Positions 1 to 19,629 of a stretch of 19,629 nt of DNA are shown piece by piece. The DNA comes from Candidatus Fermentibacterota bacterium. Lineage in GTDB: Bacteria > JAFGKV01. The DNA lies in the NCBI GenBank assembly GCA_030620115.1, contig JAUXFG010000068.1, positions 1 through 19,629 on the forward strand. The letters run 5' to 3'. The position numbers were made by a program, and so were the translations under genes. Numbering within the stretch: the first letter of the stretch is position 1; each line of letters begins with the position of its first letter. The notes under the pieces were generated by a model, which was given only the letters and a program-made list of their open reading frames with translations, did not search any database and was not told where the DNA came from.

Positions 1-212
1 CGGGCAGTTGACGGAACGAGGAGCGAGGTGAAATTCTTCGCTCCCATGAGTCGCTCAGAATGACAGTGGTAGTGAACAGAAGGATATGCCGGTACATGTC
101 ATTCTGAGGAAGCAAAGCGACCGAAGAATCTGGGTGGGGAGAGGAGAAGGAAGCGTTCAGCGTTCAGATGATGGAGCAAAGAGCAAGGAGAGATTTTCCG
201 CTCCCGCAAGTG
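1..212. repeat. Degenerate dispersed composite repeat (family A), left copy
   Basis: No gene is supported here; the stretch is repeat-derived. One arm lies at 33-65 and an inverted partner at 97-140. Each arm is bounded by ATTCT/AGAAT, and the arms are separated by about 31 bases, so they could fold into a long imperfect hairpin. A linker with a doubled GCGTTCA follows near 153-168, and a decayed second arm starts near 193, giving a period of about 160. The repeat runs to within a few bases of the mltF stop codon. The same composite occurs in reverse orientation at 19397-19629 and as a tandem pair at 16017-16273. ORFs across it are repeat translations, not genes. Confidence 0.85.
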
Positions 213-1622
213 CTAGCCCGGATCCTCCCCGCCCACCAAGGTTGTGTAGGCGTGCCATCGACGTACGATGTCGTTGGCATAGCTTACGGCTTCATCTCCC
301 CTGGCGTAGCCGTGCCGCGCCTTTCTGTAGTACTCGGGGCGGGAGAGCAGGAGCAAGGTTTGTTCAACATTGCCTTCCCAGATGCTCGGATCCAATTCCG
401 ATTCCGTGGCCAGACTCTGCGCATCCAAGACATGTCCGAGCCCGGCACAGTATGAGGCCAGCGCCAAAGGAATTCGATTCTCCTCAGTCGTGGATTCGAA
501 TTGATCACACATCCTTCTCAGGTAACGTACACCGCCCTCGATATTCTGCGCAGGATCCCATGGGTCCACCACGTCAAGTTCCCGGGCAGTGATGGGGAGG
601 AGTTGCGCGAGGCCGATGGCCCCGGCCCAGCTTTCCCGGTCTGGGTCGAAGCGCGATTCCTGATAGATCAGGGCAGCCAGAAGAAGCCAGTCAAAGTCGT
701 GCCGCTCCGCACTACCCTTAATGTAGCGATCGTAGCGACTGATGACGCCCTTTTCTTTGGTGACTTCCAGCGAATTCCGGTGGCGCACGATGTTCTTGGG
801 AACGAGGTAGTACTTCTTGACAAGATAGTTGAAGAACGTGGTCTTCTTCATGCTGGTGAGGTATTCATTCGCTGCCCGCAGCAGAGAGAGGCAGTCGGGT
901 CGAACGCCCCACGCGATGGGGCGAGGCTCGGTGAGGGCGGGGCCCAGGACGATGTCGTTGGAATAGGTTCGTTCGAACCACCCGATGTTTTGGTCCGCCA
1001 CGGTGAGATCTATCTCCCCGGCCCTCAGCATGGCTACGATGTCGCTGGTCTCCATGTGCGGGGGCATGATTTCGACAGAGAATTCCATCCGCTTCTTGAG
1101 CTTCAGGCGCAGCAGCGTGGCTTCGTAGCTCGAACCTTCACGGACGTGCATAGTCCGTCCTGCCAAATCGTCGATGCTTCCGGGAATCGGCTCCCCCCTC
1201 CGGCCCACCAATACTTCGGGTATCCTCTGGTAGGGAACGGTGAATGCGATTTCAGCGGCACGGCCGGGTGTGACGGTCATGGCCGAAGCGATCAGATCTC
1301 CCTTGCCCTCCAAGAGCCACGGGATGAGATCGGTCCATTCAGGAGGCACCACGGCACGTACGTTCACACCCAATCTCGTGGCAAACTCCTCGGCAAGCTC
1401 ATACTCGAATCCTAGCTCTCTCCCCCTGAATAGGAAGTATGTCTGGGGGTTGTTCCTGGTCAGGATCCTCAGTTCTCCGCTGGCCTTGATTTCCGCCAGA
1501 TCCCGAGGTGGAGCAGGGAGCGAGACCACCGTGATTTCGGGAGCCTTGGGAACGCAAGAAAGAAGGACACAGGATCCGACCAGGAGCATACGCCGAAGCC
1601 GACCGGAGGGAAATGTTCTCAT
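213..1622 (-). CDS. mltF: MltF-like membrane-bound lytic murein transglycosylase (lipoprotein)
   Basis: Predicted 469-aa periplasmic enzyme that cleaves peptidoglycan glycan strands with formation of 1,6-anhydroMurNAc. The chosen ATG (1620-1622) has GGAG five bases upstream and gives a lipoprotein signal with lipobox LLSC (Cys23); the longer open frame to 1826 would run into the upstream pseudouridine synthase gene. Residues about 45-270 form a bacterial extracellular solute-binding family 3 domain, starting at GELRILTRNNP. Residues about 305-440 form an SLT domain with the catalytic Glu in YQESRFDP and the downstream GAIGLAQLLP and GGVRYLRRM motifs. This SBP-plus-SLT order is the MltF architecture, and the length is near the family norm. 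The gene starts 10 bp after the pseudouridine synthase stop, so the two are probably co-transcribed. The 3' end abuts the family A repeat. Confidence 0.93.
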   Translation of the reverse strand: MRTFPSGRLRRMLLVGSCVLLSCVPKAPEITVVSLPAPPRDLAEIKASGELRILTRNNPQTYFLFRGRELGFEYELAEEFATRLGVNVRAVVPPEWTDLIPWLLEGKGDLIASAMTVTPGRAAEIAFTVPYQRIPEVLVGRRGEPIPGSIDDLAGRTMHVREGSSYEATLLRLKLKKRMEFSVEIMPPHMETSDIVAMLRAGEIDLTVADQNIGWFERTYSNDIVLGPALTEPRPIAWGVRPDCLSLLRAANEYLTSMKKTTFFNYLVKKYYLVPKNIVRHRNSLEVTKEKGVISRYDRYIKGSAERHDFDWLLLAALIYQESRFDPDRESWAGAIGLAQLLPITARELDVVDPWDPAQNIEGGVRYLRRMCDQFESTTEENRIPLALASYCAGLGHVLDAQSLATESELDPSIWEGNVEQTLLLLSRPEYYRKARHGYARGDEAVSYANDIVRRWHAYTTLVGGEDPG

Positions 1623-1632
1623 GCGCGCTCCG

Positions 1633-2448
1633 TCATCCTTGACTGTCCCTGCCTGTCGAGGAATGCCTCCCCGTGCGGCGGTCTCTCGTACGGCTACGGC
1701 GGCGGGGATGATCCCACTTCTCCGGGAGAGGGGGCCAGACCCAGTCAGGGGGGTTGGGAGCGTTGAGCACCATCTCGATCTGTCGTGTAGGATGGGTGAA
1801 CCGCAGCTCCAGTGCAAGCAGACCAATTCCGCCCCTCACCCGATGGCGAGCGCCATACTTCGTGTCTCCCAATATCGGCCATCCCGCATGGGATAGCTGC
1901 ACTCTGATCTGATGTGTTCGGCCGGTCTCAGGTCGTATCTCCAACAGGCTCATGTCTCCCCGGCTTTCGAGAGTCTTGTACGCAAGTAGTGCCTGCTTTC
2001 CCCGGAGATCTCCGGGAGGGACGGGCCGGCTTTTGCGATTCGGTGGCCTTCTGAGCAAGTGCTGCAGGGTGCCCGCCGGTGGATGCGGAATGCCCTCCAC
2101 CACGGCAAGATATGTCTTGGTGATCAATCCATCGCGGAATTGGGCAGAGAGACGTGCGGCAGCCTTGGAGGTTTTGGCCAAGAGCAAGACTCCGCCCACC
2201 GGGCGGTCGAGCCGATGAACCAGACCAAGGAAAATCTCACCCTGCTTATGGTACTTCTTGCGCAGCCACGCGCGTGCCACATCGAGAAGTGTGTTATGGC
2301 CATGCCCCGGGCCCTGGGTGAGCAAACCGGCGGGCTTGTAGATCCCCAGGAGGTGGTTGTCCTCGTAGAGTACAAGGAGCTCCTTCGCCGCTCTGAATGC
2401 CGGCATGGTTGACATCCGGTGACCATCCCACCATACAATGCCAGTCAT
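1633..2448 (-). CDS. RluA-family RNA pseudouridine synthase
   Basis: Predicted 271-aa enzyme converting uridine to pseudouridine in rRNA or tRNA. The catalytic motif HRLDRPVGG holds the nucleophilic Asp (Asp81 from this start), and the conserved RPETGRTHQIRVQ and GDTKYG motifs follow. There is no N-terminal S4 RNA-binding domain, so it resembles the short RluA/TruC-type members rather than RluC/RluD; substrate position cannot be assigned. The C-terminus (last 30 or so residues) is an Arg-rich tail. The start at 2446-2448 is chosen because GGGAGG lies eight bases upstream (2457-2462); later in-frame ATGs at 2415 and 2406 lack a ribosome-binding site. The start codon overlaps the divergent rsmG start codon. 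mltF follows 10 bp after the stop. Confidence 0.92.
   Translation of the reverse strand: MTGIVWWDGHRMSTMPAFRAAKELLVLYEDNHLLGIYKPAGLLTQGPGHGHNTLLDVARAWLRKKYHKQGEIFLGLVHRLDRPVGGVLLLAKTSKAAARLSAQFRDGLITKTYLAVVEGIPHPPAGTLQHLLRRPPNRKSRPVPPGDLRGKQALLAYKTLESRGDMSLLEIRPETGRTHQIRVQLSHAGWPILGDTKYGARHRVRGGIGLLALELRFTHPTRQIEMVLNAPNPPDWVWPPLPEKWDHPRRRSRTRDRRTGRHSSTGRDSQG
2409..2439 (+). promoter_or_regulatory. Candidate sigma70-type promoter for rsmG
   Basis: A perfect -35 hexamer TTGACA (2409-2414) and a 5/6 -10 hexamer TACAAT (2434-2439), separated by 19 bp, which is longer than the optimal 17. Transcription would begin near 2446, at or one base before the ATG at 2447, giving a leaderless mRNA. This fits the absence of any Shine-Dalgarno sequence upstream of rsmG. 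The promoter lies wholly inside the N-terminal codons of the opposing pseudouridine synthase gene. Confidence 0.5.
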
Positions 2449-6408: not shown

Positions 6409-7662
6409 CTACTCCGTGGGAATGAGTCCGGCGTAGAGGGGAAAGGCGTCGCACAGTTCTTTGACTTTTCCACGGACCGCGTGGGCCTCTGACTCATTGT
6501 CGATGTTGGTCAGCACCTGGTCGATGAGCTGCGCGATGAGCTTCATCTCGGGCTCCTTCATCCCCCGGGTAGTGAGGGCCGGCGTGCCGATGCGGAGACC
6601 GCTGGCAATGAAGGGCTTCTCGGGATCGAAGGGTATGGTGTTCTTGTTGGCCGTAATTCCCGCCTGATCAAGCGCCTCCTCCGCTACCTTGCCGGTAAGT
6701 TTCTTCGGGATGAGGCTCATCAGGAAGAGGTGTGTATCGGTTCCACCGGATACGATGTGATAGCCAAGTTCCGCCAATGCCTGAGCCATGGCGGATGCGT
6801 TCTTCCTCACCTGTTTCTGGTAGGCCTTGAACTCATCGCTCATGGCTTCCTTGAGGCAGACCGCCTTGGCGGCAATGACATGCATCAGAGGCCCACCCTG
6901 CGTGCCGGGGAAGTTCTGACTGTTGATCTTCTTGCGGTAATCCTTCTTCATGAGGATGAGGCCGCCGCGTGGCCCCCGCAGTGTCTTGTGCGTGGTGCTG
7001 GTGACAATGTCCGCATACGGGACAGGGCTTGGATGCTCCCCGGCTGCGATGAGGCCCGCGATGTGTGCCATGTCCACGATGAGATATGCCCCGACTTCGT
7101 CGGCGATTCTCCGAAATGCCTCGAAATCGAGTGTTCGTGGATACGCGCTGGCACCGGCAACAATGAGCTTGGGCCTGGCTTCCTTGGCCACCTTCATCAG
7201 CTCATCATAGTCCAGCTGTTCCGTCTCCCTGCTCACCCCGTACTGCACTGCGTGGAAGAAACGGCCTGAGAAGTTCACCGGATGCCCATGGCTCAGATGG
7301 CCTCCGTGGGAGAGGTTCATGCCGAGCAGCGTGTCGCCTACATCTCCCACCGCGAAATAGGCCGTCATATTTGCCTGGGTACCTGAATGGGGCTGGACAT
7401 TGGCTGATTCGGAACCGAAGAGTGCGATAGCGCGTCTCCTGGCCAGCCGTTCGGCCTCATCCACATTCACGCATCCGCCATAGTATCGCCGGCCGGGATA
7501 TCCTTCCGCATACTTGTTGGTCATTACCGATCCCATGGCCTCCATGACGGCGCGCGAGGTGAAGTTCTCACTGGCGATGAGCTCCAGCGTGGTCGCCTGT
7601 CTGACGACTTCGGCGCGAATCGCCTCATAGATCTCGGGATCAACGGCTTTCAAGTTCTTCAT
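6409..7662 (-). CDS. glyA: Serine hydroxymethyltransferase GlyA
   Basis: Predicted 417-aa PLP enzyme converting serine and THF to glycine and 5,10-methylene-THF in the cytoplasm. The Schiff-base lysine is Lys226 in [45 protein letters not shown] and VDMAHIAGL are hallmark SHMT motifs, and the length is standard. The ATG at 7660-7662 is preceded by GGGGAG with an eight-base spacer. folD follows directly, so the pair forms a one-carbon operon. The 135-bp gap to the upstream kinase gene shows no THF-riboswitch-like fold or convincing promoter by eye, so glyA may have a weak promoter there or be partly read through from the kinase. Confidence 0.99.
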
Positions 7663-7797: not shown

Positions 7798-9264
7798 TCA
7801 CAGCGCGACGGGCAACTCGATGGTCACGGTGGTGCCTTTGCCCTCGATACTCGTCAGCTCCAGTTGCCCTTGGTGATCCGCGATGATTCTGTTGCAGATT
7901 GACAGGCCAAGCCCCGACCCCTCGGCTCGTGTAGAAAAGAACGGTGCGAATACATGGGGCATACTCTCAGGCTTCACGCCGATTCCGGTGTCCGTGACCT
8001 GCAGTTCGATCATATGTCTGTCTTCCCGTTCCGCCGCGCGGATCACGAGATCACCGCCCTTGGGCATGGCCTCCAATGCGTTGAGGAAGAGATTCAGCAG
8101 AACCTGCTCGATCTTCCCTTCGTCTGCGAGAAGGGGAGGGAGACCGGTGGGAATATGGACCCTTGTGTTCACACCCTGTTCCAAGGCTCTGGTTGCCACC
8201 GTGTCCAATGCTCGATTGACGGGCTGAAGTACTGGACACGCCTTCTTGATAGGGCTGGCGGGTCTTCCCAAGATGAGGAGGTCGCTGACAATGCCATTGA
8301 GGCGTGTGATCTGTTGTACAATAGTCTCCCTATGCCTGAGGGCTCTCTCATCTTCCGGCGGCAATGTTGCAAGAATTTCCACTCCGGAAAGGATACTGGC
8401 CAAGGGGTTCCTTATCTCGTGGGCAATGCCCGCGGCCATGGATCCGAGCACGGCAAGCTGATCCGTACGGCGCAGCTGTTCTTGGAGACGTTTTTTCTTG
8501 GAGATATCCTGGTAGATCAGGACAATCCCGGCATCTTTGTCATCAGGAAGTCCATAAGGCGCGGTACTGAGGCCAAGCAGAACGATCTCTCCAGAGGGAA
8601 GCGGTAGCCGGTGCTCTACTCGTGTGCCGGATTCTCCGCTCCTGAGCGCTTTCCATAAGTGGTCCCGTCTCTGGATGTGGAACAGCCTTATCACGTCCTT
8701 GCCCACGAGTTCGTCTTGTTTGCTGCCGAGAATAGACGCGCCGTGGCTGTTCACCGAGAGGATCTTGTTCTGCCGATCAAGTAAGATCACGCCGGCGGGG
8801 AGGTACTCCACGATCTTGGACGTCATATCTTGGTATTCACCGGCGAGTTTGTCCGGCCTCAGGATCCCCGCATCCGAAGACGCGAGGATCTTGGCTTTAT
8901 GGACATCCCCCTTGCCGCAGTCGAGCCGCAACGCCCGGAAGAGCAGCTCTTCCGGTGTGTACGGCTCGACAAGGGCTTCCCATCCGGTCTGGGCGGCGAT
9001 CTCAAACATCTTCTTCGAGGCAACGCTGTCTGCGGTGAGCATAATTCGAGCAGGAAGCTTTTCCAGGGTCTCTCTGGTCCGCCGGGCCAGGAGAGAGGAA
9101 TCAACGACAATAATGGTTGTTCCCCACGTCGGATCAGGAGGTCCGGGCAGATCGGTGAGGCTGGCGGTCATGTCCACGCGATATCCTCTATCAGTGAGAA
9201 ACTGCTTCGCCCGGATTAGATAGCGAGTAGATCCGAATATCAGAAACCATGGTCTTCTATCCAA
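7798..9264 (-). CDS. Cytoplasmic PAS-domain sensor histidine kinase with N-terminal receiver-like domain
   Basis: Predicted 488-aa soluble kinase without membrane segments. Domains in order: a receiver-like fold (residues about 5-115; strands WFLIFG, TTIIVVDSS, ARIMLTADS and EALVEPYTPEELL) that lacks the usual acidic pair and has Glu where receivers keep Lys; a PAS domain (about 145-255); HisKA with phospho-acceptor His282 in AAGIAHEIRNPLAS; and HATPase_c (about 370-488) with the N-box LLNLFLNALEAMP, DTGIGV and GSGLGL. The HisKA-HATPase pair is NtrB-like. The TTG at 9262-9264 is preferred because GGAGGGG (9271-9277) lies six bases upstream and the first receiver strand then begins at once; an ATG at 9279 (493 aa) and longer frames to 9495 have no ribosome-binding site. 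It is divergent from the REC-PATAN regulator, its likely partner. Confidence 0.92.
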   Translation of the reverse strand: MDRRPWFLIFGSTRYLIRAKQFLTDRGYRVDMTASLTDLPGPPDPTWGTTIIVVDSSLLARRTRETLEKLPARIMLTADSVASKKMFEIAAQTGWEALVEPYTPEELLFRALRLDCGKGDVHKAKILASSDAGILRPDKLAGEYQDMTSKIVEYLPAGVILLDRQNKILSVNSHGASILGSKQDELVGKDVIRLFHIQRRDHLWKALRSGESGTRVEHRLPLPSGEIVLLGLSTAPYGLPDDKDAGIVLIYQDISKKKRLQEQLRRTDQLAVLGSMAAGIAHEIRNPLASILSGVEILATLPPEDERALRHRETIVQQITRLNGIVSDLLILGRPASPIKKACPVLQPVNRALDTVATRALEQGVNTRVHIPTGLPPLLADEGKIEQVLLNLFLNALEAMPKGGDLVIRAAEREDRHMIELQVTDTGIGVKPESMPHVFAPFFSTRAEGSGLGLSICNRIIADHQGQLELTSIEGKGTTVTIELPVAL

Positions 9265-9270
9265 AATGAA

Positions 9271-9277
9271 CCCCTCC
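9271..9277 (-). promoter_or_regulatory. Ribosome-binding site for the histidine kinase TTG start
   Basis: GGAGGGG on the minus strand, six bases before TTG 9262-9264. It lies downstream of the alternative ATG at 9279 and so argues against that ATG. Confidence 0.6.
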
Positions 9278-9287
9278 ATGAAGACGT
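9276..9287. repeat. 12-bp direct repeat copy 1 in the divergent kinase/regulator region (candidate operator)
   Basis: CCATGAAGACGT, identical to 9405-9416 and in the same orientation 129 bp away. It lies about 5-16 bases downstream of the predicted kinase transcription start. An identical 12-mer twice within 170 bp is unlikely by chance. Confidence 0.5.
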
Positions 9288-9298
9288 ACAATGGCGCG

Positions 9299-9327
9299 AA
9301 TTTAGGAGATGCGAGCCGATACGCCAA
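9299..9327 (-). promoter_or_regulatory. Candidate sigma70-type promoter for the histidine kinase gene
   Basis: On the minus strand, -35 TTGGCG (9322-9327) and -10 TAAATT (9299-9304) are each 4/6 matches with an ideal 17-bp spacer. The predicted start near 9292 gives a leader of about 27 bases that contains the GGAGGGG site. A copy of the 12-bp direct repeat lies just downstream of this start. Confidence 0.4.
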
Positions 9328-9372
9328 GATGGGATGGAAGAGCCCCGCAGATCCGGGACTCAAATCTCGTTC

Positions 9373-9401
9373 TTGACGAGCCATGCCGAGAGACAGATTT
9401 T
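9373..9401 (+). promoter_or_regulatory. Weak candidate promoter for the REC-PATAN regulator gene
   Basis: -35 TTGACG (9373-9378, 5/6) with a 17-bp spacer to a poor -10 GATTTT (9396-9401). Transcription would start near 9408, within the second copy of the 12-bp direct repeat. The poor -10 suggests activator dependence or a wrong call. Confidence 0.25.
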
Positions 9402-9404
9402 GTC

Positions 9405-9416
9405 CCATGAAGACGT
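9405..9416. repeat. 12-bp direct repeat copy 2 in the divergent kinase/regulator region (candidate operator)
   Basis: CCATGAAGACGT, the second identical copy, overlapping the predicted transcription start of the regulator gene and about 20 bases before its Shine-Dalgarno sequence. A GACGTC palindrome overlaps its right edge. Confidence 0.5.
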
Positions 9417-9447
9417 CGTCTAGTCCACTCCGCGCAGGGAGGCATCC

Positions 9448-10593
9448 GTGTCCGCAGATCCTGGGTCCACAGATGGGGCTGATACCCGTCCCCATGAAGC
9501 GATCTCAGTTCTCGTCGTGGACGACGAAGAGACGTTTCGCAACTTCCTTTCGGAAGGCATCTCCCTGATTGGGCGTGGGCGGTATGAGCCCGTATGCGCG
9601 CGCTCCGTGGACGAGGCTTTGGAACTCCTCTCTGATCGGGAGGTCGGCGCGCTGGTTACCGATATCCGTATGCCGGGAAAGGACGGCCTGCAGCTTCTCC
9701 TGGAGATCAAGAAGCAGTCGTTGAGAATCCCCACGGTGGTCATGACGGCATACGGTTCCCCAAGCGTTCACGCCGAAGCCGCACGGAGGGGCGCGATTCG
9801 ATACATCGAGAAACCATTTCGTTTTGAGGATCTGATAGCGCTTTTGGACGAGATGATCGATGAGCATGCCGCAGAACCCCCTCGTTCTTCCCTGGACCTG
9901 ATTGAGGTGGTGGAGATGCTTTGCGTGGGCGGCAAGGACATGGAAGTCACGGTTCGTACGGAGGACGGCAACGGGAAAATCCATATAAACCAGGGGGAGA
10001 TCCGTCACGCTGAATTCCTCGGCAGGGAGGGCTCTGGCGCCTTTTATGAGCTTTCCGCATACCGGCGATCCCAGATCTCCACGAGCCCTTCGTCAGAGAT
10101 GCCACATGCGACGATCACCCAGCCCTGGCGAGAGTTGACCCAGGAAGCGTGGAGGCGGAGAACTAACCCCATACTTTCCGGGAGAGCTGCCCGGGTTGGA
10201 GGGATGGGGGGGGGATCCATTCTCGAGGACAGAGATCTTCCGGTGCCGGAACCGTTCTGGTCGAAGCTGCCCGTGGATGAGGTGGTACGGAGCGCAGCAG
10301 TACATCTGAGTGGAGCTCAGCACCCCACATTGATCTCACATGATGATGAGGGCGGCGATCGTCTTGGTCCCGTGGAGCGGACAATCCTCTGCGTGGGTTC
10401 GGTGCTCAAGTTGGGACCGCTTGTAGGATGTATCATTCGGGAACCGGAGGAGTCGTGGATTCTGCTTCCTTTGGGACGGGGACGGACGCTGACCGCCTTG
10501 TGCGATGGATCCGTCCACATCCAGGCGCAGATCGTCTCCTTTGCCGAAACGTTTCGTTCCGACGATCGAGTCGCCCCCCACGGGGCAGAATAG
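9448..10593 (+). CDS. Response regulator with receiver, PATAN (DUF4388) and C-terminal roadblock-like region
   Basis: Predicted 381-aa cytoplasmic regulator. The receiver domain (residues about 19-138) keeps the acidic pair Asp25-Asp26, phospho-acceptor Asp72, Thr100 and Lys122, so it should be phosphorylatable. A PATAN/DUF4388-type domain follows (about 148-210; SLDLIEVVEMLCVGGKDMEV, then GKIHINQGEIRHAE). There is no HTH or AAA+ domain, so output is probably by protein contact. Residues about 271-366 show strand patterns like the second half of a Roadblock fold (VGCIIREPEESWILLPLG), a tentative call. The GTG start has AGGGAGG (9436-9442) five bases upstream. A nine-G run at 10206-10214 encodes a Gly linker before the C-terminal part. 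The partner kinase is divergent, and two Roadblock genes lie downstream. Confidence 0.88.
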   Translation: MSADPGSTDGADTRPHEAISVLVVDDEETFRNFLSEGISLIGRGRYEPVCARSVDEALELLSDREVGALVTDIRMPGKDGLQLLLEIKKQSLRIPTVVMTAYGSPSVHAEAARRGAIRYIEKPFRFEDLIALLDEMIDEHAAEPPRSSLDLIEVVEMLCVGGKDMEVTVRTEDGNGKIHINQGEIRHAEFLGREGSGAFYELSAYRRSQISTSPSSEMPHATITQPWRELTQEAWRRRTNPILSGRAARVGGMGGGSILEDRDLPVPEPFWSKLPVDEVVRSAAVHLSGAQHPTLISHDDEGGDRLGPVERTILCVGSVLKLGPLVGCIIREPEESWILLPLGRGRTLTALCDGSVHIQAQIVSFAETFRSDDRVAPHGAE

Positions 10594-10642
10594 AGATTGT
10601 TGTGACGAAAAGTCGATTCATCCATGAGGAAAGGGAGTAGTC

Positions 10643-10975
10643 ATGGAATACGGCCTCTTGGCAAAGCATATACGGGCGCTGGAAGGGGTCACCGGCGTAA
10701 CGGTGGCAGACGCCGAAGGTCGGTGCTTGGCGCGTGAAGATTGTAGTTATCCGGGCGGTCTTGCGGCGGCAACGGTTCTTGTCATGAATCATGCCGCCCA
10801 GTTGGCGGAAATGCTTGGCCTTGGGGAAAGCCCGCACGTCGACTTTGTGTGCGGGCTGACGCGGGTCGCATTGATCGGCAATGCCAATACCTTTGTCGCA
10901 ATCGAGTACGCGTGGCCTGCGGACTCCGATCGCCTTGCCGCTGAAACAGTTGGTCTATTGGCCGCATATCGCTGA
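10643..10975 (+). CDS. Roadblock/LC7-domain protein, short form
   Basis: Predicted 110-aa protein consisting of one Roadblock/LC7 domain. The helix-strand opening (LEGVTGVTVADAEGRCLA) and the C-terminal half (HVDFVCGLTRVALIGNANTF, then EYAWPADSDRLAAETVGLL) follow the family pattern. Bacterial members such as MglB dimerise and act as GAPs or scaffolds for Ras-like GTPases such as MglA. The ATG is preceded by GGGAG with a five-base spacer. It starts 49 bp after the regulator stop and ends 14 bp before the next Roadblock gene, so all three are likely one operon. No Ras-like GTPase is in the window, so the partner is unknown. The domain call is by pattern only. Confidence 0.82.
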   Translation: MEYGLLAKHIRALEGVTGVTVADAEGRCLAREDCSYPGGLAAATVLVMNHAAQLAEMLGLGESPHVDFVCGLTRVALIGNANTFVAIEYAWPADSDRLAAETVGLLAAYR

Positions 10976-10989
10976 CCCGGGAGGTGGGA

Positions 10990-11721
10990 ATGATGGTCCA
11001 AGAGCAACTTGCTCAGCTCAATAAGATTTCCGGTGTATTAGGTGCATGTTTGTGCAGCAGGGACGGGAAGGTTCTGGCCTGTAATATGCCGGAGATATAC
11101 GAACCAGAAACCCTCGAGCTGGCGGCCCGCCTCATTGCTGAAGCGTTCATGGGTATCGAGAGCATCCGTGAGGATGTATCAGAAATGGATTTTATCTATC
11201 AGGATTACCTCTGCATCGTCCGTCCAGTAGGGGATGCCCGCCTCCTCTACGTGATATGTGAGCCGGAGGTCAAAACCCCTATCGTGAAACTGAGCCTCAA
11301 CGTGGCTGCGAAAAAGCTGGCATTTGTACCCATGCCGGAAACAGTTGATGAGGGGAGCGCCGGGGGCACATCGGCACAACAGGTTTCAGGGGCGCCTACC
11401 CGGAAGCCCCCCGACGACTCCCTCGGCCACCAAGCCCTCACGGATTCGGAAACGCTGGATCCTGCGGCGGTAACAACGGTGATGAAGGCGATCCAGGATC
11501 AACTGGGGCAGAGCATGGGGGAATCGGTGGGCAAGATCATTGTTGATACTGCTCTGGATGCCTCGGGGGTGAACCGGGAGGCGCCGGGAAGGACGGAACT
11601 GAGGATCGCGCTCAACGAACTGCTCAACAAGGCGCTGGCCAATGTCATGGGCAAACCTGAGGCCGTACGATGGCTCAACGAGCTTCTTGAACGACATGGC
11701 CTTGCCCGAAAAGGGCAATAG
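10990..11721 (+). CDS. Roadblock/LC7-domain protein with C-terminal helical domain
   Basis: Predicted 243-aa cytoplasmic protein. Residues 1-105 form a Roadblock/LC7 domain (LNKISGVLGACLCSRDGKVL, later YQDYLCIVRPVGDARLLYVI). Residues about 113-148 are a Pro/Ser/Thr-rich linker. Residues about 150-243 are a mostly helical domain I do not recognise, containing GESVGKIIVDTAL and ELRIALNELLNKALANVMGK. The ATG at 10990 is five bases after GGGAGG (10979-10984); ATG 10993 is equally possible, while GTG 10984 overlaps the Shine-Dalgarno sequence. It follows the short Roadblock gene by 14 bp, so the two may form a heterodimer. A small hairpin (TTGCCC/GGGCAA, 11702-11718) ends at the stop codon but has no T-run. 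Confidence 0.82.
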   Translation: MMVQEQLAQLNKISGVLGACLCSRDGKVLACNMPEIYEPETLELAARLIAEAFMGIESIREDVSEMDFIYQDYLCIVRPVGDARLLYVICEPEVKTPIVKLSLNVAAKKLAFVPMPETVDEGSAGGTSAQQVSGAPTRKPPDDSLGHQALTDSETLDPAAVTTVMKAIQDQLGQSMGESVGKIIVDTALDASGVNREAPGRTELRIALNELLNKALANVMGKPEAVRWLNELLERHGLARKGQ

Positions 11722-11830: not shown

Positions 11831-11894
11831 AGAATCCGCTTTCGTCTCTTGAAGCTGCTCCTATCTGATATTTCGTACCGCAAGATATCACGAC

Positions 11895-11930
11895 TGTCAT
11901 TCTGAGTGAGTGAAAGGAGCGAAGAATCTC
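11895..11930 (+). repeat. Solitary arm of dispersed repeat family A
   Basis: A TGTCATTCTGAG opening and GAAGAATCT end, as in the composite repeats at 1-212, 16017-16273 and 19397-19629, but without an inverted partner nearby. Confidence 0.75.
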
Positions 11931-12296: not shown

Positions 12297-12315
12297 TATT
12301 TCAAGGGAGGTGTAT

Positions 12316-13827
12316 ATGAAATACTATAGGATAGGTGCGCTCTTTCTGGGACTAGCTCTTATGTGGCTTATGGTTCCGATGGAGAGCGGCGCAGGCGATT
12401 ACAGGGATCTAGAGAAACAGGTTGTGGAGCACACATTGCCCAATGGGCTCAAATTCCTGCTAGTGGAGCGAGGGGAGGCGCCGGTTTTTTCGTTCTGCAC
12501 TACGGTGCACGCCGGAGCCGTTGACGAGCAGTACGGTATCGGCGGTATCGCGCACATGATGGAACACATGGCATTCAAAGGATCCCAGACGGTGGGGACA
12601 ACCAACTATGCTGGTGAGGCGCAAGCCATAGAGCGTGTCGACAACGCCTATGAAGCCATCCTGCAAGAGAGAAGAAAGGGCGTTTTCGCGGATTCATTGA
12701 CGCTTGCTCGGTTGGAGCAGGAGTTCAGAGAAGCACAGAAGGCCGCGGACGCCTTTATCGTTCCCAATGAATACTCCAAAATCCTCGATGAAGAAGGGGC
12801 AACAGGTGTCAACGCGTACACCGGGGCTGATCAGACTGTCTACTACTACTCCTTGCCCTCCAATAAGATCGAGCTCTGGGCGCTCATGGAATCTGATCGA
12901 ATGACGTATCCGGTCTTCAGGGAATTCTATAAGGAGAACGAGGTAGTCCAGGAAGAGCGGAGAATGCGCTTCGAATCCACGGCCTCCGGTCGATTGCTGG
13001 ATGAGTTTCTCTCGGCAGCCTTCAAGGATCATCCGTATGGCCACGGCATCATCGGAACACCTTCGGATCTTAAATCATTCACGCGTAGAGATGGGCGCAA
13101 TTTTCGAAATACATACTACGTTGCTCGCAACATGACCACCGCCGTGGTCGGCGATGTTGACGTCAAGCAAACCATTCAACTGGCCGGAAAATACTTCGGA
13201 GATATGCCCGACCGGCCCTTGCCGCCGGCAGTGGACACGAAAGAGCCCCCGCAGATGGCCCAGAGACGGGTCATCATGGAAGACGCGGCGCAGCCGTTCT
13301 TCGTGGTCGGATATCATGTACCGGAAGAGAAGCATCCCGACTTCCCCGCCATAGAGGCAGCGACGGACATCCTTGCAAATGGAAGAAGTTCGAGGCTCCA
13401 CCGGGAGCTCGTGAAGAAGAAGCTTGCCGTTCAGGTTGGAGGGATCGTCGGCCCCTGGGGATGTCAGTATAATACGATCGCCATCGTTTTCGTCGTGGCG
13501 TCGGCAGGCACGGATATCCACGAGCTGGAGGAGGCCTACCATGGCGTGGTGAGCTCCCTCTGCTCCGAGGCCATCACTCCCCAAGAACTCCAGGGCTACA
13601 AGGCCAGGGCCAAGGCCGACCATTTGCGACGCCTTCGCGATGATGATGGTTTTGCCAATCAGCTGACGTATTACGAAGAATTTAGAGGAGGATGGAGGAA
13701 CCTGTTTACCCATCTGGATTCGATTGAAGCCCTGACCATCGATGATCTCTTGAGGGTCTCGGAACGTGTGTTCACCAAGAACAATAGGACGGTGGCAATG
13801 ATCGTGCCGCCGGCTGAACAGGAGTAG
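12316..13827 (+). CDS. M16-family zinc metalloprotease, catalytic subunit
   Basis: Predicted 503-aa exported protease. An N-terminal signal peptide (residues about 1-26, hydrophobic FLGLALMWLMV) directs it to the periplasm. The inverted zinc motif HMMEH (His80, Glu83, His84) and the distal Glu in ENEVVQEERRM (about 213) are intact. About 50-60 extra residues, mostly helical and charged, lie between them. The C-terminal M16 domain has SSRLHRELVKKKLAVQV, with Val where the partner family's substrate-binding Tyr sits. The ATG at 12316 has AAGGGAGG a few bases upstream; GTG 12310 overlaps that site. The second M16 gene follows 6 bp downstream, so the two probably work as a heterodimer degrading peptides. 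Substrate is unknown. Confidence 0.94.
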   Translation: MKYYRIGALFLGLALMWLMVPMESGAGDYRDLEKQVVEHTLPNGLKFLLVERGEAPVFSFCTTVHAGAVDEQYGIGGIAHMMEHMAFKGSQTVGTTNYAGEAQAIERVDNAYEAILQERRKGVFADSLTLARLEQEFREAQKAADAFIVPNEYSKILDEEGATGVNAYTGADQTVYYYSLPSNKIELWALMESDRMTYPVFREFYKENEVVQEERRMRFESTASGRLLDEFLSAAFKDHPYGHGIIGTPSDLKSFTRRDGRNFRNTYYVARNMTTAVVGDVDVKQTIQLAGKYFGDMPDRPLPPAVDTKEPPQMAQRRVIMEDAAQPFFVVGYHVPEEKHPDFPAIEAATDILANGRSSRLHRELVKKKLAVQVGGIVGPWGCQYNTIAIVFVVASAGTDIHELEEAYHGVVSSLCSEAITPQELQGYKARAKADHLRRLRDDDGFANQLTYYEEFRGGWRNLFTHLDSIEALTIDDLLRVSERVFTKNNRTVAMIVPPAEQE

Positions 13828-13833
13828 CAGAAA

Positions 13834-15975
13834 GTGAGAGGCCTCAAAAAAACAGCAATGCCGATAGGATTTCTTGTGATCGTGCTGTTGTCTCTCTGTG
13901 GTGCCGCCTACGCAGAGAAGCAGTGGGAGCAGCTTTCCTATCCGCCATTGAAGGAAATCAAGGTGCCCGAGGTCGCGCGCTATGAGTTCGACAACGGGCT
14001 GGTTCTTTTCCTATTGGAGGACAGGGAGTTCCCCCTGATCGATGTGCGAGCCAGTCTCAAAGCCGGTGGCGCATTCGACCCGGCGGACAAGGCGGGGCTT
14101 GCTTCGATCACTGCGGTGGTACTGCGGAACGGGGGGACCGAGTCCTTTCCGGGAGATGATCTGGATGTGTATCTCGAATCCATTGGCGCACAGATAGAGC
14201 TCACTACTGAGAATGACAGGGTCATCATCAATGCGTCATTCCTCTCAGAATATGATGATGATATTCTTATGCGGCTTGCCGATCTTCTCATGCGGCCGGC
14301 GTTTCCGGACGACAAGATCGAATTGGCGGAAATCGATGAACAAACCGCCATCGCGGCGCGAAACGACCAACCATTTGATATTGCTCTCAGGGAGTATCGG
14401 AAGGTCGTCTATGGCCCCGAGAGTCCGTATGCCAGGCACACGGAGTACGCCACTATCGAGGCCATCGGAAGGGACGATCTTCTTGCCTTTCACCGCAGCT
14501 ACTACCGCCCCGACGGGATGGTTCTGATCATCACCGGTGACTTCAAGAAAAAGGACATGAAAAAGCGGGTCGAGCGGCTTCTCGGAGGGTGGAAACAGCC
14601 GGGAGAGCCGCTACCCGAGCCGCCGGCTGTTCCCGAGATGCAGGCCCGGGGCATCTATTACGCCGAGAAGACCGATGTCACCCAGTCGACCATCCTCTTG
14701 GGTCATCTCGGGTTCCGTGTCGACGATCCTGACTACCCGGAGATGAGAATCCTGAACGAGATCTTAGGTGGCGGTTTCTCTTCACGCATCATGAACGAAA
14801 TTCGAACCAAACGCGGGCTTGCGTACATGGCGAACTCGATTCCCGGCTACGCCTATCCGCGACCAGGGATTTTTGGCGCCATTGCCGGCACGAAGTCTGA
14901 GTCGACCTTGGTTGCCATTCAGCTCTTGGAAGAGGAGATCCGCAAAGTCACGGAAGAGCCGGTTACCGAGGTGGAGCTGGAGCGAGCCCGGTCCGGCCTG
15001 TTGAATTCCTTTGTCTTTGAGTTCGATACTCGCTCCGAGGTTGCCAATCGTGTAGGCTTCTTCGAGTTCTACGGCTATCCTCTGGACTTTCTTGCGCAGT
15101 ATCAGCAAGGACTGAGGGAGGCCACGCCGCAAAGCATCCTGGAAGCCGCCAAGCGGAAGATTCACCTTTCGAAGCTCTCCGTACTCGTCATAGGGAACAA
15201 AGCCCAGTTTGCCGGCTCGCTTTCGGAGCTTGGCGAGGTGGTAGAGCTTGACATCTCGATACCCGAACCGCCGTCAAAGCTGGAAATACCCGAACCTACC
15301 GAAGAGAGCCGTGAGCGTGCACGGGAGATCTTGACCAAGGCGGCCCAGCTAGAGGGTGGAAAGGAAACGCTCGCGGAGCTGAAGTCGTTGAAAGTCGAGA
15401 CGGACGCCAAGATTTCCATGCAAGGCATGACCTTTAATATCTTTTCCACCGAGATACAGCTCTTTCCAGACCACCAATACGGCTCTCAGGTTCTTCCGTT
15501 CGGTCAGGGCACGGCTGTGCAGGTTTTCACTGGAGACGCGGGGTGGATGAAGGATCCCCGGGGTCTGCAGGACATGCCCGAGGATCAACTCGTCGATGCG
15601 AAAGCGGATCAGATCCGAGACCCGATCCGGCTCCTTGCTCATTACGAGAACATGGATCTCCAGGCATTGGATCCAATTGAAGAGGATGGGCAAACCTTCG
15701 AACGGGTATTCGTTCGTACCGAGCTCGTCAAAGATTTCATCTTGTTCTTCGACAAGGAAGGCCGATTCGTGCGCATGGACTACCAGGGGAAGGGACCACA
15801 GGGGCCGGTGAAGGCCTCCATGCGGTACGAGGGATTTACCGAAGAGTCAGGGATTGGTTTCCCTTCGACAGTCAAGCTGTACCATGACGGAGAGCTATTC
15901 CTTACCAGCACATTGAAGAGTGTTGAGGTGAATCCCGAAGTGGATATGACCATATTCGAGAAGCCTTCAGAATAG
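13834..15975 (+). CDS. M16-family non-catalytic subunit with C-terminal LolA-like domain
   Basis: Predicted 713-aa exported protein. The signal peptide ends near AAYA-EKQ (residues about 10-27). The M16 N-terminal domain (about 45-250) lacks the zinc motif: GLASITAVVLRNGG stands where HxxEH should be, so this domain is catalytically dead. The second M16 domain (about 265-470) keeps the substrate-binding Arg/Tyr pair in RTKRGLAYMAN (Arg324, Tyr331). Residues about 510-713 form an extra beta-rich domain resembling outer membrane lipoprotein-sorting (LolA/LolB-like) folds, a call by pattern only. The start is GTG with AGGAG nine bases upstream. It is coupled to the catalytic subunit upstream. 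The gene is convergent with the TolC-like gene across repeats. Confidence 0.92.
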   Translation: MRGLKKTAMPIGFLVIVLLSLCGAAYAEKQWEQLSYPPLKEIKVPEVARYEFDNGLVLFLLEDREFPLIDVRASLKAGGAFDPADKAGLASITAVVLRNGGTESFPGDDLDVYLESIGAQIELTTENDRVIINASFLSEYDDDILMRLADLLMRPAFPDDKIELAEIDEQTAIAARNDQPFDIALREYRKVVYGPESPYARHTEYATIEAIGRDDLLAFHRSYYRPDGMVLIITGDFKKKDMKKRVERLLGGWKQPGEPLPEPPAVPEMQARGIYYAEKTDVTQSTILLGHLGFRVDDPDYPEMRILNEILGGGFSSRIMNEIRTKRGLAYMANSIPGYAYPRPGIFGAIAGTKSESTLVAIQLLEEEIRKVTEEPVTEVELERARSGLLNSFVFEFDTRSEVANRVGFFEFYGYPLDFLAQYQQGLREATPQSILEAAKRKIHLSKLSVLVIGNKAQFAGSLSELGEVVELDISIPEPPSKLEIPEPTEESRERAREILTKAAQLEGGKETLAELKSLKVETDAKISMQGMTFNIFSTEIQLFPDHQYGSQVLPFGQGTAVQVFTGDAGWMKDPRGLQDMPEDQLVDAKADQIRDPIRLLAHYENMDLQALDPIEEDGQTFERVFVRTELVKDFILFFDKEGRFVRMDYQGKGPQGPVKASMRYEGFTEESGIGFPSTVKLYHDGELFLTSTLKSVEVNPEVDMTIFEKPSE

Positions 15976-15990
15976 GCCACCACAAGACCG

Positions 15991-16022
15991 ACGCTCTGCG
16001 GTACATTCTTGAGGCAGAGCGT
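15991..16022 (+). terminator. Hairpin after the M16 operon (possible terminator without T-run)
   Basis: ACGCTCTGC (15991-15999) pairs perfectly with GCAGAGCGT (16014-16022) over a 14-base loop, 16 bases after the stop. No T-tract follows, so intrinsic termination is doubtful. The right arm overlaps the first bases of the tandem repeat. Confidence 0.3.
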
Positions 16023-16149
16023 TCAGCGTAGAGATTCTTCGCTCCTTGCGTCGCTCAGAATGAGAGGGGTGGTTTGCATTGGACGTAAAGAGAGATGTCA
16101 TTCTGAGGGAGCAAAGCGACCGAAGAATCTGGGTGGGGACGGGAGAGGA
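16017..16149. repeat. Family A composite repeat, tandem unit 1 (133 bp)
   Basis: An inward-facing arm (16031-16064) and its inverted partner (16096-16131) are separated by about 31 bases and joined to the next unit by a GGAGAGGAGAGCG linker. It differs from unit 2 at one visible position over about 124 bases (G at 16063 against C at 16196), pointing to a recent duplication. Confidence 0.92.
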
Positions 16150-16273
16150 GAGCGTTCAGCGTAGAGATTCTTCGCTCCTTGCGTCGCTCAGAATGACAGG
16201 GGTGGTTTGCATTGGACGTAAAGAGAGATGTCATTCTGAGGGAGCAAAGCGACCGAAGAATCTGGGTGGGGGA
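16150..16273. repeat. Family A composite repeat, tandem unit 2
   Basis: The second copy, offset by exactly 133 bases, with the same paired inverted arms. It ends at the GGGTGGGG motif, where the flank diverges from unit 1. Confidence 0.92.
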
Positions 16274-16375
16274 GAGTGATGGAAAAAGGGGGATCGAGGG
16301 ATTCGCCGAGGCTCCCGCCGAAGCTCCCGACAAGGTTCTTTGGGAGAGGAGAAGGAAGTTCGGGCTATCTGTAGG

Positions 16376-19347: not shown

Positions 19348-19396
19348 AATCCCCCAATCCTTCAATCCGGCATTCTCGCATTTCCTCTTCTCCCTT

Positions 19397-19629
19397 CCCC
19401 CCCAGATTCTTCGGTCGCTTCGCTTCCTCAGAATGACAGACAATCCACATCCTTCTGCTCACTACCACTGTCATTCTGAGCGACCGCAAGGAGCGAAGAA
19501 TCTTTCCTTGCTCCTCGTTCTGTCATCTGAACGCTGAACGCTCTCCTCTCCTCCCCCCCCAGATTCTTCGGTCGCTTCGCTTCCTCAGAATGACAGACAA
19601 TCCACATCCTTCTGCTCACTACCACTGTC
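19397..19629. repeat. Family A composite repeat, right copy (tandem, period 157 bp, cut by window end)
   Basis: Arms at 19404-19438 and 19472-19502 face each other. After a linker ending in a C8 run (19553-19560), the second unit repeats from 19561 and matches the first without a visible difference to the window end. In reverse complement it matches the left copy at 1-212, including the GACAGTGGTAGTGA loop region. Confidence 0.9.

Follow-up and report, generated by a model that had tools for sequence, protein, structure and literature searches.

A conserved kinase, REC-PATAN regulator and Roadblock gene set in a Candidatus Fermentibacterota genome with no detected MglA GTPase

Analysis of a 19,629-nucleotide contig from a Candidatus Fermentibacterota bacterium (hereafter the window, meaning this stretch at its full length) identified four genes encoding a histidine kinase, a divergently transcribed receiver-PATAN (REC-PATAN) regulator and two consecutive Roadblock proteins, Rbl1 and Rbl2. 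The set genuinely exists as a conserved variation on a known module, and is notable chiefly for the undetected GTPase that every close comparison leads one to expect. The four genes sit between glyA (6409-7662), which flanks the set on the kinase side, and two genes for M16 family zinc peptidases (12310..15975, forward strand; identified by Pfam M16), which lie 3′ of Rbl2. All four were found by ORF reading, in the orientation described in the first-pass annotation, an earlier reading of the DNA from its letters and open reading frames.

The longest ORF of the kinase could begin at 9495, overlapping the regulator gene. Since conserved sequence begins near residue 80 of this frame in comparison with relatives, the start is more likely the ATG at 9279, placing the kinase at 7798..9279 on the reverse strand and leaving a divergent spacer of 168 bases (9280..9447, read directly from the ORFs) before the regulator. 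A scan for promoters and terminators gave no excess over shuffles. A dispersed intergenic repeat with the core TGTCATTCTGAG...CGAAGAATCT occurs in both orientations in the window (92-169, 11890-11929, 16016-16301 and 19393-19629), with some copies in near-identical tandem at spacings of 133 and 157 bases and one copy within the 588 bases that separate Rbl2 from the first M16 gene. Elsewhere in the window (213-1826), a solute-binding domain is fused to a lytic transglycosylase domain in an MltF-like arrangement.

The kinase matched the Pfam PAS (2e-15), HisKA (1e-12) and HATPase_c (4e-27) families, and no transmembrane segment was seen by eye. A weakly receiver-like region at its N-terminus is a candidate pseudo-receiver: it aligns in register and by eye resembles a degenerate receiver, but the profile comparison was not significant. 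The regulator (9448..10593, forward strand) consists of a receiver (residues 20-135; Pfam 1e-20), a PATAN/DUF4388 domain (148-238; Pfam 1e-8) and a divergent C-terminal domain (about 276-371), with both Pfam matches above cut-off. The receiver fold was recovered in an AF2 model (structure match Z 20), and the PDB structure matches listed for the regulator were taken up by receiver domains, which are uninformative on the PATAN domain or the C-terminus. The acidic triad, the phospho-Asp (Asp72), Thr100 and Lys122 were invariant in five homologues. Thus, the protein has the receiver with phospho-Asp and the DUF4388 domain that define a REC-PATAN response regulator; the PATAN output and the phosphorelay architecture proposed in the first-pass annotation are both supported. 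The C-terminal domain occupies the position of the Roadblock domain of distant homologues, and its model has a Roadblock-compatible order of elements except at helix 2, where there is a gap of low confidence (pLDDT about 50). It is a candidate third Roadblock domain; the profile comparison was not significant.

As judged from family profiles and a predicted structure, Rbl1 (10643..10975, forward strand; 'Roadblock A', a single Roadblock domain of 110 aa) and Rbl2 (10984..11721, forward strand; 'Roadblock B', 245 residues) are Roadblock proteins. The evidence does not come from Pfam, which by itself was insufficient: the two single proteins scored 17.2 and 16.1 bits against Robl_LC7, below the cut-off of 23, and a genome scan with PF03259 gave no match at E 0.001. 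The Pfam Roadblock model is known to miss some true members (PMC4316618), so the sub-threshold scores reflect the reach of the model, and passing its cut-off does not define the fold family. When each window protein was combined with its homologues in a family profile, the top PDB match was a Roadblock structure, 7yh1, for the Rbl1 family (E 4e-5, with LAMTOR2 at 3e-4) as well as for the Rbl2 family (E 5e-5). Alignment of the Rbl families to MglB-type Roadblocks by hhalign gave E-values of about 2e-6 to 5e-6 with probabilities of 86-89%, and the Rbl1 and Rbl2 families matched each other in profile-profile comparison at 2e-7.

Structural evidence was obtained from a relative (G002), in which the orthologues of Rbl1 and Rbl2 are in frame with one stop between them and were modelled by AF2 as one read-through chain. 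The tandem model had a mean pLDDT of 82, with each half predicted as a-b-b-a-b-b-b-a; its pTM of 0.55 supports the folds and not an Rbl1-Rbl2 interface or pairing. The leading Foldseek/VIA matches of the orthologue model were of Roadblock or longin type, with Z 8.1 to 3l7h for Rbl1 (model residues 2-89), and Z 12.9 to 9jue and 12.0 to Myxococcus xanthus MglB (6hjm) for Rbl2. The claim that both small proteins are Roadblocks is therefore upheld by profiles and model together. Rbl2 comprises a Roadblock domain (about 1-120), a linker and an additional C-terminal domain (about 145-245, some 100 aa), which forms a helical bundle in the orthologue model, is conserved in relatives and was missed in the first-pass annotation.

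Within the family, the comparison covered two relatives, G001 and G002, both of which keep the order folD-glyA-kinase<>regulator-Rbl1-Rbl2-M16-M16. The four-gene order is thus conserved in relatives, yet within the family it lends modest support to a functional unit because the whole folD-to-M16 block is syntenic. Identities to the relatives were 83% for GlyA, 57-63% for the M16 pair, which holds the same position in both, 45% for the kinase, 42-48% for the regulator and Rbl2 (42% for Rbl2) and 28-31% for Rbl1. The M16 pair, directly downstream of Rbl2 in three of three family members, and the outer-membrane efflux protein and MacB-like permease that come next in the window genome and one relative, could suggest that the module controls a target other than a pilus through protein contacts, such as envelope export or the exported M16 peptidases encoded alongside. 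We consider this improbable, as the conserved neighbourhood includes the unrelated folD and glyA, rendering adjacency uninformative, and the distant homologous sets described below have neighbours other than those of the window.

The low conservation of Rbl1 relative to GlyA, along with the fast divergence of the C-terminal domain of the regulator, might instead indicate a relict, that is, a locus decaying after loss of MglA or retaining only a minor kinase/phosphatase role. However, all frames are intact, the phosphorylation residues are invariant, and codon positions 1 and 2 of both small genes are better conserved than position 3, indicating that these genes are truly coding and under protein-level constraint. 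Furthermore, when G001 is compared with G002, both of which have MglA, Rbl1 again shows the lowest identity among these proteins (50% versus 90% for GlyA), and we regard decay as very unlikely.

A profile of Rbl2 was searched against 386 sampled genomes and matched 33, and the regions around the matches were searched with home-made profiles (the source sequences of which match by construction). Apart from the window family, a Roadblock A adjoining a Roadblock B was found once each in G055, G139, G276 and G158 and twice in G310; Roadblock A is in some cases a separate protein and in others is joined to a PATAN protein at its end. Homologous sets with the A-B pair thus occur in distant genomes, beyond close relatives, in answer to the gene-neighbourhood check suggested at first pass. 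The gene order in G055 (locus L010) was REC / PATAN-RoadblockA / RoadblockB / PATAN / HAMP / MglB / MglA, and that in G139 and G276 (L050 and L051) was RoadblockA / RoadblockB / REC-PATAN-Roadblock / RoadblockB / TPR-Roadblock / Roadblock / MglA / MglB / PilB; L046 and L047 each consist of PATAN-RoadblockA / RoadblockB. Three distant homologous sets therefore share a cluster with MglA and MglB, and sometimes PilB. Other MglA clusters (L011, L072 and L078) contain PATAN, TPR, MglB, PilB, PilT and kinase genes in whole or in large part. PATAN-Roadblock-MglA gene neighbourhoods were reportedly noted by Makarova in 2006, and MglA genes near PATAN genes were reported by Wuichet and Sogaard-Andersen in 2014 (PMC4316618). 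The company of MglA, MglB and PilB in these homologous clusters supports the evolutionary link to MglA modules drawn at first pass and indicates, from sequence comparison, descent of the window set from the PATAN-Roadblock-MglA module already known for type IV pili and polarity.

One distant set resembles that of the window in a further respect. In G158 (L075 6538-8632), a degenerate receiver-PATAN-Roadblock A protein is followed by a Roadblock B protein, which bears a helical tail, and by an OmpA-like gene; neither of the two Roadblock-bearing proteins matched a Pfam or NCBIfam family above cut-off, and no MglA was detected in this genome despite the A-B pair. The tail of Rbl2 was compared with the helical tails of PATAN or Roadblock proteins in L010, L050 and L075, and a relationship was rejected as weak (E 0.006, probability 6%). 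Roadblock B proteins at L050 9215-9832 and L051 8973-9590 have a C-terminal domain unlike that of Rbl2 and, by eye, small and beta-rich.

The first-pass annotation had interpreted the set as a phosphorelay governing the state of a small-GTPase switch, with the GTPase missing from the window. Searches of the whole window genome, the assembly of which is estimated to be 98.26% complete, did not find MglA with an MglA protein query, and the best match of an MglA profile was partial (E 0.07) and inside an 872-residue frame. No match to the Roc family was obtained, the sole match to the Arf family was weak and inside a 727-aa open frame, and MglB was not found by several searches. The regulator was the only PATAN match in the genome. 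Both relatives, in contrast, have an MglB-MglA operon elsewhere in the genome, headed by a degenerate PATAN protein and, in G001, accompanied by a further PATAN protein. The head protein (L044 4594-5640 on contig C39 of G001; L045 on contig C44 of G002) scored 21 bits, below cut-off, and had no NCBIfam match. Non-detection of the GTPase thus holds for the entire window genome and not for the family, and the GTPase-switch interpretation is unsupported in the window genome, where no cognate Ras-like GTPase of an MglA/MglB polarity module was found.

Across the sampled genomes, MglA was present in 25 of the 33 with an Rbl2-like protein and in 122 of the 353 without (Fisher P 6e-6, uncorrected for relatedness). 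The ancestral link to MglA is real but not obligatory. This enrichment, and the presence of MglA in both relatives, would be expected if an MglA-type switch were still set in the window genome, its gene being absent from the assembly or replaced by a divergent GTPase, with Rbl1 and Rbl2 acting as GAP, GEF or co-regulators. We consider such a switch unlikely, though less so than the other alternatives weighed above: at this level of completeness, no trace was found of MglA, MglB, the PATAN protein of the operon or the 349-aa protein beside it, so that an assembly gap hiding the MglA gene is conceivable but improbable; the Roc and Arf searches offer no ready substitute; and G158, too, combines an A-B pair with no detected MglA.

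A type IV pilus motor is encoded in the window genome, although no pilus genes lie inside the window. Contig C14 carries PilB, two PilT, PilC and PilS/PilR (names other than those of the T2SSE ATPases were assigned by eye), PilB has an N-terminal MshEN-like region, and PilM is also encoded. Among the two draft relatives, PilM was found in both and PilT in G001, and intact PilB was recovered in neither. Receiver-PATAN regulators of the cyanobacterium Synechocystis bind PilB1 and PilC directly (PMC12288463, PMC7690835).

Taken with the cyanobacterial PATAN regulators and the RomR/MglB/MglC proteins, the encoded pilus machine makes a GTPase-less motor adaptor the most economical reading of the set. 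We favor, with confidence a little short of even, a model in which the kinase phosphorylates the regulator and the Roadblock pair serves the regulator as a scaffold at the type IV pilus motor, without MglA. In this model the genes form a two-component system with a protein-protein rather than a DNA output. The soluble PAS kinase would autophosphorylate and pass the phosphate to Asp72 of the receiver, as suggested by the domains present, the intact catalytic motifs and the divergent arrangement of the two genes. The phosphorylated receiver-PATAN protein may then switch the partner that it holds. Rbl1 and Rbl2 would pair together and with the regulator as an adaptor comparable to RomR-MglC-MglB, since both have Roadblock folds and are co-encoded, the A-B pair is recurrent and Roadblock A is sometimes fused to PATAN. 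The PilB/PilC motor is the putative target, in view of PATAN-PilB binding in cyanobacteria and of the homologous clusters containing PilB, and the system may tune pilus extension or cellular placement. As the GTPase is undetected in this lineage, contact between the adaptor and the motor is probably direct.

It is conceivable, with the chances leaning against it, that control of the pilus motor here, and perhaps independently in G158, lies with a REC-PATAN/Roadblock A-B complex free of any small GTPase, the Roadblocks serving as phosphorylation-dependent scaffolds and not as regulators of a GTPase. Bacterial Roadblock proteins are almost automatically taken as partners of MglA; if this proposition is true, the Roadblock fold is able to act as a phosphorelay adaptor alone, without MglA, and the cyanobacterial PATAN regulators and myxobacterial RomR/MglC/MglB would be branches of one ancestral pilus-steering module.

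Several known systems share parts of this architecture. The Myxococcus RomR/MglC/MglB proteins likewise combine a response regulator with two different Roadblock proteins, the contacts in the window set being predicted from gene linkage; the Myxococcus module serves MglA, whereas MglA was not found in the window genome. A PATAN domain is not known in RomR. MglC is a Roadblock protein that has lost MglA binding; its partners include MglB and RomR, the response regulator (PMC7949163). The actinobacterial conservons CvnA-D resemble the window set in that a histidine kinase is encoded with an MglB-type Roadblock protein, but include CvnC and the GTPase CvnD and have no response regulator (PMC4316618). 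The cyanobacterial PixG, PixE and LsiR are, like the window regulator, soluble proteins with a receiver and a PATAN output. They act on PilB1/PilC (PMC12288463, PMC7690835), an action on the motor that is proposed for the window set by analogy, and no Roadblock partners are reported for them in the available portions of their descriptions; the window regulator has its receiver ahead of PATAN and belongs to a set with a PAS kinase. Lastly, the PATAN-Roadblock-MglA neighbourhoods are alike in placing PATAN genes near MglB-type Roadblock genes, and those at L010, L050 and L051 include both MglA and MglB. The window set differs from them in coming from a genome without detected MglA or MglB, in adding a kinase, and in having two unlike Roadblock proteins after one REC-PATAN regulator.
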